From NCBI RefSeq assembly GCF_020510525.1, contig NZ_CP075188.1, positions 310,001 through 374,000 on the forward strand: a stretch of 64,000 nucleotides of DNA. Reading direction: 5' to 3'. Below the pieces are notes generated by a model. It made no database searches, had not been told where the DNA came from, and saw only the letters and a program-made list of their open reading frames with translations. Below, in pieces: positions 4,917 through 31,710 of this stretch (the first letter of the stretch is position 1; every line of letters begins with the position of its first letter). This DNA comes from Quatrionicoccus australiensis (GTDB taxonomy: Bacteria > Pseudomonadota > Gammaproteobacteria > Burkholderiales > Rhodocyclaceae). The position numbers were made by a program, and so were the translations under genes.

Positions 4917-5264
4917 ATGAAATTACTGAAATCCCTGTTGTTGCTGGCGCTTCTGGTCATGGCCGGAGCGGGCAGTGCCTGGGCGCATGGCAGTCGTGTC
5001 GGCGTTTATGTCGGCCCTTACTGGGGTTATCCATCGCCCTGGTTCTATCCCCCTTATTACCGGCAGGAAGTGATTGTCGTGCAGCCGGCGCCGCCGCCGG
5101 AACCGACCGTCTATATCGAGAAGCAGGAAAGCGTTGTGTCCGAGCCGGCCCCGGCGCCAGCCCAGCAATACTGGTATTACTGCGCGGCCAGGAAGGGCTA
5201 TTACCCCTATGTCAAGGAATGTCCTGGCGGTTGGCAGAAGGTTCTGCCGCAACCGGAAAAGTGA
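4917..5264 (+). CDS. Small exported protein rich in Tyr/Pro
   Basis: A 115-residue protein with a clear Sec signal peptide (MKLLKSLLLLALLVMAGAG, cleavage near AWA-H at about residue 23). The mature part is rich in tyrosine and proline (GPYWGYPSPWFYPPYY). A proline/glutamate linker leads to a C-terminal block, QQYWYYC...GYYPYVKECPGGW, that I have seen in many short betaproteobacterial exported proteins. The two cysteines in this block could form a disulfide. It is followed 7 bp later by a lipoprotein gene, so both probably act in the envelope. The function is unknown. Confidence 0.7.
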   Translation: MKLLKSLLLLALLVMAGAGSAWAHGSRVGVYVGPYWGYPSPWFYPPYYRQEVIVVQPAPPPEPTVYIEKQESVVSEPAPAPAQQYWYYCAARKGYYPYVKECPGGWQKVLPQPEK

Positions 5265-5271
5265 GCAAAGC

Positions 5272-5823
5272 ATGAATATGCAGAAAAAATCCATGATGCG
5301 ACTTTTGCCGCTGGCCGGTTTCCTGGCGCTCGGTGCCTGCACCGTCATGCCGACCGGGCCGAGTGTGATGGCCCTGCCCGGTAGCGGGCAGTCGATTGAG
5401 CGCTTCCGTGCGGATGATGTCTATTGCCGCCAGTTTGCGCATACCCAGATCGGTGGCAAAACGGCCGAAGAAGCGTCGCAGAAGTCGGCCGTGACCAGTG
5501 CTGCGGTCGGAACGGCAGTCGGTGCGCTGGCCGGTGTGGCGATCGGTGGTGATTCACGTGGTGCGGCGATTGGTGCCGGTACCGGGCTGCTGCTCGGTAC
5601 TGCAGTAGGTACCGACGCGGCGCGGGCTTCCGGTGTCGGTACCCAGCGCCAGTACGACAATGCCTACGTGCAGTGCATGTATGCGCAGGGACATCGCGTC
5701 CCGGTGCCGGCCAGCATGGCGACGCCGCGTGCCGTTGCGGCGCCCGCAACGGCTGTACGCGCCGACGATGCCGGCATTCCGCCGCCTCCGCCGGGTTTGC
5801 CCCCGCCGCCGCCAACCCGATAG
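5272..5823 (+). CDS. Glycine-zipper lipoprotein
   Basis: A 183-residue predicted lipoprotein. The signal sequence ends in the lipobox LGAC (Cys24), so Lgt (encoded near 19 kb) should modify it. The middle (about residues 75-125) is an Ala/Gly-rich glycine zipper (AVGTAVGALAGVAIGG and GAAIGAGTGLLLGTAVG) of the type that inserts in or spans the outer membrane in Omp-like and YmgG-type lipoproteins. A conserved QRQYDNAYVQCMYAQGH block and a Pro-rich tail (PPPPPGLPPPPP) follow. ATG 5272 is used; ATG 5278 is an alternative. It probably shares a transcript with the preceding exported protein gene. Confidence 0.75.
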   Translation: MNMQKKSMMRLLPLAGFLALGACTVMPTGPSVMALPGSGQSIERFRADDVYCRQFAHTQIGGKTAEEASQKSAVTSAAVGTAVGALAGVAIGGDSRGAAIGAGTGLLLGTAVGTDAARASGVGTQRQYDNAYVQCMYAQGHRVPVPASMATPRAVAAPATAVRADDAGIPPPPPGLPPPPPTR

Positions 5824-26849: not shown

Positions 26850-27221
26850 ATGGCAATTAGCAAAGAAGACATCCTGGAAGCCGTTGGCTCCCTGACCGTT
26901 ATGGAACTGAATGACCTGGTCAAGGCATTCGAAGAGAAGTTTGGCGTTTCCGCTGCTGCCGTCGCCGTTGCCGGTCCGGCTGCTGGTGCCGCTGCCGCTG
27001 CTGAAGAGCAGACCGAATTCACCGTCATGCTGCTCGGTCCGGGCGACAAGAAGGTTGAAGTCATTAAGGTCGTTCGTGCTGTTACCGGCCTGGGCCTCAA
27101 GGAAGCCAAGGATCTGGTCGACGGCGCTCCGAAGGCTGTCAAGGAAGGCGTCTCGAAGGCTGATGCAGAAGCCCTCAAGAAGCAACTGGAAGAAGCTGGC
27201 GCCAAGGTCGAAGTCAAGTAA
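26850..27221 (+). CDS. rplL: 50S ribosomal protein L7/L12
   Basis: A 123-residue protein in three parts: an N-terminal dimerisation helix hairpin (residues 1-33), an Ala-rich flexible hinge (about 35-53) and the C-terminal domain (54-123), with [20 protein letters not shown] and the end [17 protein letters not shown], that recruits EF-Tu and EF-G. It is present in four to six copies per ribosome. The C-terminal domain resembles an insert in RpoB encoded about 1.5 kb downstream. An attenuator follows. Confidence 0.98.
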
Positions 27222-27426: not shown

Positions 27427-30400
27427 ATGACTTACTCCTTCACCGAGAAGAAACGCATCCGCAAGAGTTTTGCCAAGCGCGCCAGCGTACTTGACATTCC
27501 CTTCCTGCTTGCGACCCAGCTCGAGTCCTTCACCGCTTTTTTGCAAGCGGAAGTCCCTGCTGAAAAGCGCAAAAACGAAGGCTTGCAAGCCGCGTTCACC
27601 TCGATTTTCCCGATCGTTTCTCACTCCGGCAATGCGCGTCTTGAGTTCGTCAGCTTTATGCTGGGCGAACCGGCATTCGATGTTACCGAGTGCCAGCAAC
27701 GCGGCCTGACTTTCGCTTCTTCCCTGCGTGCTCGCGTGCGTCTGGTGATCATGGATCGCGAAGCGCCCGATACGGTCAAGGAAGTGAAGGAGCAGGAAGT
27801 GTACATGGGCGAAATTCCGCTCATGACCACCAATGGTTCCTTCGTGATCAATGGTACCGAACGCGTCATCGTCTCGCAGTTGCATCGTTCTCCCGGCGTG
27901 TTCTTTGAGCACGATCGCGGCAAGACACACAGCTCCGGCAAGTTGCTTTTTTCGGCACGGGTTATTCCTTACCGTGGCTCATGGCTGGATTTCGAATTCG
28001 ATCCGAAAGATACGCTCTTTTTCCGTGTCGACCGTCGCCGCAAGATGCCGGTTACGACGCTGCTCAAGGCGATCGGCATGTCCTCCGAAGAAATCCTCAG
28101 CGAGTTCTTCGACTTCGATACCTTCCTGCTTGGTCAGGAGAGCGTCGAGTTCACATTGGTTCCCGAGCGTTTGCGTGGCGAGGTTGCCCGTTTCGACTTC
28201 GTCGGGCCGGATGGCAAAGTCATTGTTGCGAAAGACAAGCGCATCACCGCGAAGCACATTCGCGACATCGGTGCCGCCTCGCTGAAGCAGATCGTTGTAC
28301 CGGAAGACTTCATCATTGGCCGGGTGATTGCCAGAAACATCATCGACAAGGCAACCGGCGAGGTCGTTGCCAATGCGAATGACGAGATCACGGAAACCTT
28401 GCTGGCCAAGCTGCGTGAAGCTGAAATCACCACCGTCGAGACGTTGTACACGAACGATCTGGATCGCGGTGCTTTCATCTCCAATACGCTGCGCGCCGAC
28501 GAAACGGCTTCGCGTCAGGCTGCCCGTGTCGCGATCTATCGCATGATGCGTCCGGGTGAGCCGCCGACGGAAGAAGCTGTTGAAATCTTGTTCAACGGCC
28601 TTTTCTATTCTGATGAGCGTTATGACCTCTCCGGCGTTGGCCGGATGAAGTTCAACCGTCGCCTGGCTCGCCAGGATGTCATTGAATACAAGGTCATGGT
28701 CCGCAGTCTGGCCTCCAAGGCTGAAGCCGCCCTGCGCAATCTCGCTGAGGGTTCCGGCTTCCCGCTGGCCGCCATTCAGGATCTGGTTGGCCTGATGCCT
28801 TACGGTCCGCGTGCTCTCTCCGAGAATCTGACCAAGGAAGCTGCAGAAGCGCTAGCTGCAAAGATCAAGCCGCTTGGTGCGAATGTCGAAGTGCGCGAAC
28901 AGCTGACCCTCTCCCCGCGCGACATCGTTGAAGTCATCAAGATTCTCGTCGAATTGCGTAATGGTCGCGGTGAAATCGACGACATTGACCACCTTGGCAA
29001 CCGTCGTGTTCGTTCCGTCGGCGAATTGGCCGAGAATCAGTTCCGTGCTGGTTTGGTGCGTGTCGAGCGTGCCGTCAAGGAGCGCTTGTCGCAAGCCGAG
29101 TCCGATAACCTGATGCCGCATGACCTGATCAACGCCAAGCCGATCAGTGCTGCCATCAAGGAGTTCTTTGGTTCCAGCCAACTGTCGCAGTTCATGGACC
29201 AGACCAATCCGCTGTCGGAAATTACCCACAAGCGTCGTGTTTCCGCTCTTGGCCCGGGTGGTCTGACCCGCGAACGTGCCGGTTTTGAAGTACGTGACGT
29301 GCATCCGACCCACTATGGTCGCGTCTGCCCGATCGAAACGCCGGAAGGTCCGAATATCGGTCTGATCAATTCGCTGGCTCTGTTTGCTCGCGTCAATGAT
29401 TACGGCTTCATCGAGACTGCCTACCGCAAGGTCAATGACGGTCAGGTGACCAACGACATCGAATATCTGTCGGCGATTGAAGAAGGTAATTACGTTGTCG
29501 CCCAGGCCAATGCCGCGCTCGACGAAAACAACCGTCTGTCCGATGATCTGGTGACTTGCCGCGAAAAGGGTGAAACCATTCTGGCCGAACCGGCTCGCGT
29601 CCAATACATGGACGTGGCTCCGGGCCAGATCGTTTCTGTCGCTGCCTCGCTGATTCCCTTCCTTGAGCACGATGACGCGAACCGCGCGTTGATGGGCGCC
29701 AACATGCAACGTCAGGCCGTTCCTTGCCTGCGTCCGGAAAAGGCGCTGGTTGGTACTGGCATCGAGCGTACTGTGGCTGTCGACTCGGGTACTGCCGTTG
29801 TCGCTCGCCGCGGCGGTATGGTTGATTACGTTGATGCCGGCCGTGTCGTGGTTCGCGTCAATGACGACGAAACCGTAGCCGGTGAAGTCGGTGTCGATAT
29901 CTACAATCTGGTGAAGTACACCCGCTCCAACCAGAATACCAACATCAACCAGCGTCCGCTGGTCCGCGTTGGTGACAAGATCGCCCGTGGTGATGTGGTG
30001 GCCGACGGTGCGTCGACCGACAAGGGCGAACTCGCTCTCGGTCAGAACATGCTGATCGCCTTCATGCCGTGGAATGGCTACAACTTCGAAGACTCGATCC
30101 TGATCTCCGAACGCGTCGTTGCTGAAGATCGCTACACCTCGATTCATATCGAGGAACTGACGGTTGTGGCTCGTGACACCAAGCTCGGTCCTGAAGAAAT
30201 CACCCGCGACATCGCTTCGCTGGGTGAGTCGCAGCTGTCCCGCCTGGATGATTCCGGCATTGTGTACATTGGTGCCGAAGTTGAAGCTGCCGATGTACTC
30301 GTCGGCAAGGTTACGCCCAAGGGCGAAACCCAGCTGACGCCGGAAGAAAAGCTCTTGCGCGCCATCTTCGGTGAAAAGGCTTCCGACGTTAAGGACACCT

Positions 30401-31710
30401 CGCTGCGCGTGCCGTCCGGCATCGCCGGTACCGTGATTGATGTCCAGGTCTTTACCCGTGAAGGCATTGAGCGCGACAAGCGTGCCCAGTCGATCATCGA
30501 CGAGCACCTGCGTCACTACAAGCTCGATCTGGCTGACCAGATGCGTATTGTCGAGCGCGACGCTTTCGCCCGTATCGAACGTCTGATCGTTGGCAAGAAG
30601 GCCAATGGCGGTCCGAAGAAGCTGGCCAAGGGTTCAACCATTGACCAGGCCTACCTGGACGGAATGGATCCGCATCACTGGTTTGACATCCGTCTGGCTG
30701 ACGACGAGATTGCTCAGCAGTTGGAGCAGGTCAAGGATGGTCTGGAACAGGCCCGCAAGGACTTTGACTCCGCTTTCGAAGCCAAGCGCAAGAAGCTGAC
30801 GCAAGGTGATGAACTGCCGCCTGGCGTGCAGAAGATGGTCAAGGTTTATGTCGCCGTCAAGCGTCGCCTGCAACCGGGTGACAAGATGGCCGGTCGTCAC
30901 GGTAACAAGGGTGTTGTTTCACGCATCCTGCCGGTTGAAGACATGCCGCACATGGAAGATGGCAGCCCGGTCGACATCGTGTTGAATCCGCTTGGTGTAC
31001 CGTCGCGGATGAACGTCGGTCAGATTCTTGAAGTTCACCTTGGTCTCGCTGCCAAAGGCCTTGGTCACCAGATCAATGCCATGCTGCGCCAACAGGTTGC
31101 CGTGAGCGAACTGCGCGCATTCCTCGACAAGATCTATAACGCCAGCGGCAAACAGGAAAACCTGGATGAACTGAGCGATGCTGAAATTGTCGAAATGGCG
31201 GGCAACCTGACTTCCGGTGTGCCGTTTGCGACGCCGGTGTTCGATGGCGCCAAGGATAGTGAAATCAAAGCCATGCTGGCTCTGGCCGGTATGCCGTCTT
31301 CCGGTCAGATGACCCTGTTTGATGGCCGTACTGGCGAGCCGTTTGAGCGTCAAGTCACGGTTGGCTACATGCACTACCTGAAGCTGCATCACCTGGTTGA
31401 TGACAAGATGCACGCCCGTTCGACCGGCCCGTACTCCCTGGTCACCCAGCAGCCGCTGGGTGGCAAGGCACAGTTCGGTGGTCAGCGCTTCGGTGAAATG
31501 GAAGTGTGGGCCCTCGAAGCCTATGGCGCATCTTATGTGCTGCAGGAAATGCTGACGGTGAAGTCCGATGACGTGAATGGCCGGACCAAGGTCTACGAAA
31601 ACATCGTCAAGGGCGAGCACAGGATTGAAGCCGGCATGCCGGAATCCTTCAATGTGCTGGTCAAGGAAATCCGTTCGCTGGCGATCGATATCGATCTGGA
31701 ACGTTACTGA
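27427..31710 (+). CDS. rpoB: DNA-directed RNA polymerase subunit beta
   Basis: A 1427-residue beta subunit, longer than the 1342 of E. coli. The rifampicin region is wild type ([20 protein letters not shown], then [10 protein letters not shown]). Late motifs such as [12 protein letters not shown] and the terminal [12 protein letters not shown] are intact. Between [10 protein letters not shown] (ending near residue 414) and [13 protein letters not shown] (from 495) there is an extra block of about 72 residues (420-491), starting EYKVMVRS and ending [17 protein letters not shown], that resembles the L7/L12 C-terminal domain. The frame is uninterrupted with normal codon use, so it is not a sequencing fault. 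Translation starts ATG 27427 after CACGGAG; rpoC follows at 21 bp. Confidence 0.98.

Follow-up and report, generated by a model that had tools for sequence, protein, structure and literature searches.

What is the block of additional residues that interrupts the RNA polymerase (RNAP) beta subunit, RpoB, of Quatrionicoccus australiensis, and from what could it have arisen? We examined a window of 64,000 nucleotides from this member of the Rhodocyclaceae (Burkholderiales; NCBI RefSeq assembly GCF_020510525.1, contig NZ_CP075188.1, positions 310,001 to 374,000 of the forward strand), in which the affected rpoB gene follows rplL, the gene for ribosomal protein bL12 (L7/L12). A reading of the sequence alone had proposed that the block resembles the C-terminal domain (CTD) of L7/L12. 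Our analysis indicates that the insert is very probably a domain homologous to the bL12 CTD, and that the resemblance is best explained by common descent. Three features of the window are central to this question:

26850..27221, + strand: rplL, canonical bL12 with an N-terminal dimerisation domain (Pfam, 70.3 bits) and a CTD (105.4 bits)
27427..31710, + strand: rpoB, RNAP beta subunit and host of the insert, 1427 amino acids (open reading frame and Pfam Rpb2 domains)
28663..28908, + strand: bL12-CTD-like insert, RpoB residues 413-494, 82 amino acids (comparison of the site; profile, fold and reverse searches)

The insert is bounded by the motifs VGRMKFNRR and LSPRDI, and comprises 82 amino acids where an insert-free relative (locus L032) has 11, a net gain of 71. 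The sequence-only reading had placed the block at residues 420-491, both of which are indeed glutamate; the existence of an extra block stands, and its extent proves somewhat longer than was proposed. On the C-terminal side, the alignment with Escherichia coli beta begins at E. coli residue 419, and we take the N-terminal side to correspond to approximately residue 408, counting back along the sequence (E. coli numbers 400-418 are obtained by counting, and 419-481 come from the alignment). The site is a loop of the beta lobe that matches roughly positions 409-418 in E. coli beta, and falls inside the lobe domain as delimited in the literature (153-226 and 343-449; PMC11515920). The ribosomal and RNAP genes of the window are arranged in the order rplK-rplA-rplJ-rplL-rpoB-rpoC-rpsL-rpsG (open reading frames, with names assigned by sequence).

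The top Pfam family for the excised insert is Ribosomal_L12 (PF00542; 24.5 bits, expectation value (E) 3.4e-5), at a score slightly short of the cut-off of 25.9 bits. When the complete genome is searched in all six frames, this family is identified at two places, namely rplL and the RpoB insert. BLASTP alignment of the insert with the neighbouring bL12 yields 22 identities in 71 positions (31%; E 2e-7 for that one comparison), and the ten identities previously counted between the last stretch of the insert and the bL12 encoded at 26850-27221 are recovered when counted again by eye. Likewise, bL12 is the top match in a single-sequence search of the PDB with the insert (E 0.0019).

RpoB inserts were gathered from the genus and the family, and a profile termed A2 was built from 45 diverse examples; an earlier and narrower insert-only profile is termed A1. 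PF00542 is matched by 33 of the 45 diverse inserts at E <= 0.01, and only one other Pfam family is matched, by a single member. The NCBIfam L12 model (TIGR00855) is matched by 27 of the 45, and four other families have one or two members each. The PF00542 cut-off itself is reached by two of nine chosen inserts. Comparison of the insert profile with bL12 by hhalign gives 96.4% over 69 columns. A bL12 profile recognizes 87 of 94 distinct inserts at 10 bits or more, compared with 4 of the 94 when reversed, none of 1880 shuffled sequences and none of 17 inserts of a second kind that occupies the same site in relatives (type B, described below), in which there is accordingly no L12 sequence signal.

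Searches in the reverse direction also lead to bL12. The seven top sequences found in the PDB with A2 are bL12, as are 15 of the 27 overall (best E 4.3e-5), and the next match after bL12 is a designed toroid (E 9e-4, 33 positions). Among 398 Pseudomonadota genomes, 154 are matched by A2; all of the matches listed except the RpoB of the window reside in frames of 72-162 amino acids, the size of bL12, and the loci fetched behind these matches are bL12 in nine of nine cases. The narrower A1 matches 24 of 399 Burkholderiales genomes, with RpoB found in 7 and frames of 123-134 amino acids in 17. Eighteen of the 19 loci fetched behind A1 matches read as bL12 (15 by a bL12 pattern and 3 by eye; a stricter pattern recovers 10 of the 19), and one, L119, was not confirmed.

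An AlphaFold2 model computed from an insert-only alignment has a mean predicted local distance difference test score of 92 and exhibits the order strand-helix-helix-strand-helix-strand (E-H-H-E-H-E), as in bL12. The predicted elements are:

28684..28710, + strand: predicted strand 1 (model residues 8-16; AlphaFold2)
28723..28755, + strand: predicted helix 1, the counterpart of bL12 helix 4 (model residues 21-31; R73 lost, V66 replaced by E or D)
28765..28791, + strand: predicted helix 2, the counterpart of bL12 helix 5 (model residues 35-43; K81 and K84 lost)
28810..28830, + strand: predicted strand 2 (model residues 50-56; inside the conserved signature YGxRAxxEN)
28834..28875, + strand: predicted helix 3 (model residues 58-71; part of the stretch closest to bL12)
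28879..28902, + strand: predicted strand 3 (model residues 73-80)

When this model is used as a Foldseek query, structures of bL12 take the top seven places, at E 2.5e-4 to 1.1e-3, and the adaptor protein ClpS appears after them. bL12 and ClpS belong to one fold group, and the insert might instead have descended from ClpS or from another ClpS-like member of that group. VIA-align assigns the model higher Z scores with ClpS (up to 10.4) than with bL12 (8.2-8.3), which counts against a bL12 origin. Sequence decides in favour of bL12. Identity within the superpositions is 30-33% for the bL12 structures 8yeq and 1ctf, versus roughly 11-14% for nearly all ClpS rows. In addition, hhalign gives only 1.5% for the insert profile against ClpS proteins of the genus and order, so that no sequence relation is detected, and ClpS (PF02617) is not among the Pfam matches of the 45 inserts at E <= 0.01. 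Furthermore, 27 of the 28 non-RpoB loci fetched from searches with the insert profiles are bL12, and the remaining one is that not confirmed. Thus, ClpS shares the overall fold of the insert without a detected relation in sequence, and we reject descent from it on the sequence comparison, despite the better Z scores, as very unlikely. The BLASTP alignment and the matches to Pfam and bL12 profiles exceed chance, and the proposed resemblance to the L7/L12 CTD is real.

To what extent has the insert kept the residues with which bL12 works? The counts that follow refer to 90 distinct inserts of exactly 82 amino acids, a sample weighted towards one genus; the other 4 of the 94 distinct inserts (83-85 amino acids) are excluded, and loci L098 and L160 stand outside the 94. 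Positions of the bL12 core and fold are retained at G77 (88 of 90), A103 (87), L106 (84), G114 (86), E96 (90) and E118 (81). In contrast, the equivalents of R73, K81 and K84 are arginine or lysine in none of the 90 inserts, and the equivalent of V66 is glutamate or aspartate in every one. Among 91 distinct rows of bL12 proteins chosen by their N-terminal domain, R73 is arginine in 90 of 90, K84 is lysine in 91 of 91, V66 is valine or isoleucine in 90 of 90 and K81 is lysine in 86 of 91. An earlier set of 44 bL12 sequences had been picked with a pattern containing GLGLKEAK, and its invariance at positions 77-84 is partly by construction.

According to Kothe et al. (2004), V66, R73 and K84 are said to form part of the bL12 binding face. 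Some basic positions persist in the inserts: lysine or arginine occupies position 64 in 90 of 90, position 65 in 14 of 90 and position 70 in 74 of 90, and a one-residue shift of the alignment would bring the invariant lysine or arginine at insert position 19 into register with K65. In the one bacterium tested, K65 and K70 are important for EF-Tu binding and growth (PMC10602876). The sequence-only reading had suggested that a translation-factor-binding fold on RNAP could contact NusG, EF-Tu, EF-G or the ribosome. An insert that still binds translation GTPases or another stalk ligand, thereby physically coupling RNAP to translation, would be consistent with homology to the bL12 CTD and with the basic residues kept at position 64 and mostly at position 70. 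We nonetheless judge it improbable given the replacement of R73, K81, K84 and V66, which bL12 proteins chosen independently of these positions conserve. The suggested contacts with EF-Tu, EF-G or the ribosome are thus not supported, contact with NusG or another factor may still be made, and the translation-factor face formed by helices 4 and 5 of bL12 is largely, although not entirely, lost. Since most of the putative factor-gripping residues are gone, the domain has apparently been put to new use.

Several residues are, in addition, invariant among the inserts. Positions R3, E8, K10, G48, E54, N55, A61, Q80 and T82, which lie mostly in or beside strands, are invariant in the 45 diverse inserts; L160, read separately, carries glutamine at position 54. 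Judging from the alternation of residues along the predicted strands, E8, K10, E54 and Q80 probably face the open side of the sheet. The insert shares with the bL12 CTD its sequence profile, predicted fold order, hydrophobic core, the charged E96 and E118 and basic equivalents of K92 and K120. It differs in being embedded in RpoB, in having three extra residues ahead of strand 2 and in lacking the N-terminal dimerisation domain: the block consists of 82 amino acids only, and PF16320 does not appear in the list of families for full-length RpoB at E <= 10.

The distribution of the insert is that of a lineage-specific feature. We built an RpoB tree of 80 rows from alignments with the insert removed; this is a quick tree with Shimodaira-Hasegawa-like approximate likelihood ratio test support only, in which L150 and L171 represent one genome; L082 and L143 proved too short and were omitted, and L098, which has a nested insert, was not included. 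All 43 rows with the L12-like insert form a single clade (support 100) that contains no insert-free row and needs one change. On this tree, the insert was gained once, ahead of the radiation of a clade of Rhodocyclaceae. A survey of the family returned an RpoB match in 159 of 199 genomes and none in the other 40. Forty of the 159 aligned across the site, and the site was read in all of these among the matches listed, revealing the L12-like block in 37 (at least 15 genera) and type B in 3. No L12-like block is present in any of the 25 that were read from the 119 family RpoBs without an alignment across the site. Named carriers include Dechloromonas (the nearest named records, in keeping with the Rhodocyclales lineage that the sequence-only reading had pointed to), Azonexus, Azospira, Ferribacterium, Accumulibacter and Propionivibrio. 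This branch consists mostly of freshwater and sludge bacteria, and Accumulibacter and Dechloromonas are important in wastewater. Outside the clade, there is no sign of an L12-like insert in the 398 Pseudomonadota genomes, where the RpoB of the window is the only RpoB among the matches listed, and the seven RpoB matches in Burkholderiales were obtained with the narrow A1.

Three records have labels that disagree with this distribution. Genome G011 is assigned by its label to the genus of the window, yet its RpoB (L032) lacks the insert and clusters with a different genus of the family; the genome may be misplaced or contaminated, or its rpoB may have been replaced. Two records from metagenome-assembled genomes labelled outside the clade, L069 (titled Desulfobulbus sp.) and L089 (Comamonadaceae bacterium), carry the L12-like insert. 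L069 and L019, the latter from the genus of the window, have identical inserts, so the label or bin of at least L069 is probably wrong.

The insert is under purifying selection, although it is less constrained than its flanks. Among 28 members of the genus, the median ratio of non-synonymous to synonymous substitution rates (dN/dS) is 0.147 for the insert and 0.061 and 0.040 for the flanks, values that are rough, since dS comes close to saturation (its median is about 1.1, and 38 of the 378 pairs are undefined for the insert). Its G+C content (0.598, compared with 0.567 for the remainder of rpoB) gives no compositional sign of recent import. The insert could instead be a largely neutral decoration, in which case the loop would simply tolerate domains, and a piece of L12 would have landed there by chance and persisted through its ability to fold, with no partner of its own. 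Two observations favour such an origin: the insert evolves faster than its flanks, and the site is variable in relatives, which either lack an insert or have some 20 additional residues, the L12-like block or type B. However, we regard neutral decoration as rather unlikely, because a 43-row clade without an insert-free member, a length held at 82 amino acids in 90 of 94 inserts, the invariance of E8, K10, G48, E54, N55 and Q80 and the purifying selection itself all argue for a constrained domain.

Taken as a whole, the explanation that we favour, with moderate confidence, is that a homologue of the bL12 CTD was gained once and repurposed on the beta lobe. The nearest candidate donor is rplL, immediately upstream of rpoB, from which the domain could have been copied into the lobe loop. 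The domain retained its predicted fold while shedding most of the surface on helices 4 and 5 with which bL12 engages translation GTPases; this loss and the lack of an N-terminal dimerisation domain set it apart from bL12 as a functional stalk protein. The beta lobe is one wall of the downstream DNA channel, and an independently folded module at this position may serve as a docking site for a part of RNAP or for a transcription factor, a role that we put forward tentatively and by analogy. Docking might bias the position of the lobe as promoters open or in elongation, in the way that Si1 acts for TraR in E. coli. There, TraR binds the lobe insert Si1, turns the lobe by approximately 18 degrees and alters promoter opening, and deletion of Si1 nearly abolishes activation by TraR (PMC6970531). 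Another folded domain carried by this lobe would be well placed to act similarly. That the RNAP of a large Rhodocyclaceae clade captured the factor-recruiting domain of the stalk from the adjacent rplL, and thereby acquired a new lobe docking site with its own conserved partner, is conceivable but doubtful as a complete scenario.

Inserts in RNAP beta are well known (PMC2939025, PMC11515920), and the sequence-only reading had allowed that this one might already be catalogued without its fold. Two groups, BEAN and HABAS, are reported to account for most of the lineage-specific insert domains in bacterial RNAP beta and beta', with the majority of those in beta having the BEAN fold, and the term 'L12' is absent from the main text of that account (PMC11515920). 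Could the insert be a BEAN domain? A type 3 insert of this kind occupies residues 286-370 in Oceanobacillus and leaves 37 residues between it and the end of the lobe domain (PMC11515920, Table 1), which corresponds to about 412 in E. coli numbering, so that Firmicutes apparently carry it at the same lobe site; this equivalence is based on published residue ranges rather than on an alignment. The core of a BEAN domain is alpha-beta-beta / beta-beta-alpha (PMC11515920), in contrast to the E-H-H-E-H-E order of our model, and the TGD/TGE motif of RNAP-beta BEAN domains occurs in only 3 of the 94 distinct inserts. On these two features, and not by profile, we set the insert apart and reject a BEAN identity as exceedingly improbable.

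The insert nevertheless resembles both the E. coli insert Si1/beta-i4 and the type 3 BEAN insert found in Firmicutes in being an independent, lineage-wide domain of the lobe (PMC2939025, PMC6970531, PMC11515920), and differs from them in fold and origin, which are bL12-like instead of BEAN. The BEAN domain is itself found in both RNAP beta and archaeal uL10 (PMC11515920), and so provides another case of a domain common to RNAP beta and a stalk protein, one that involves a different stalk protein and a different fold. No report of an L12-like domain in RNAP was found in the open-licence literature, searched by titles and the beginnings of abstracts. The insert is thus real and conserved, and belongs to a known class of RNAP beta inserts of which an L12-like representative is unreported in the literature searched. 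A bL12-like domain would be a further source of RNAP inserts beyond BEAN and HABAS, with a possible donor gene adjacent, and a ribosomal domain would have been recruited into a transcription enzyme; if such a capture from rplL took place, a recruiter of translation factors has been turned into a transcription module. Because the insert resides on the lobe that TraR moves via Si1 (PMC6970531), its deletion and its putative partner are directly testable in culturable bacteria.

The other inserts at this site differ from the L12-like block. Type B comprises 82-84 amino acids between NRR and LSPRDI and is carried by L031, L162-L164 and L240-L254, which come from Burkholderiales of other families and from three genera within the Rhodocyclaceae. 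A search with a type B profile identified 15 RpoBs among the 399 Burkholderiales genomes (families f2, f11 and f43) in addition to three genomes of this Rhodocyclaceae family; a sixteenth match lies in a frame of 308 amino acids, which is not RpoB-sized. The predicted order of type B is also strand-helix-helix-strand-helix-strand, at lower confidence and with no clear fold match. In the PDB, its profile (A4) matches 32 residues of 2z8u, a TATA-box-binding protein from an archaeon (E 1.1e-4), probably by chance or through a common strand-helix arrangement.

A third state, in which some 20 residues resembling AYPEKI..APGWLKRFYERVG are added, is observed in several families and accounts for 13 of the 80 tree rows (L183, L187, L189, L191-L197, L205, L211 and L212). 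Finally, at L098 (approximately 4938-5530; metagenome-assembled genome Zoogloeaceae Mcx344_bin48), the L12-like insert itself holds about 86 nested residues similar to RpoB 1045-1124 (E 4e-9 in a two-sequence comparison), a region that we take to be that of the known beta-i9 insert; this arrangement is from a single assembly with a contig end close by. With several types of block, and one nested within another, the loop looks like a site at which domains have landed repeatedly.
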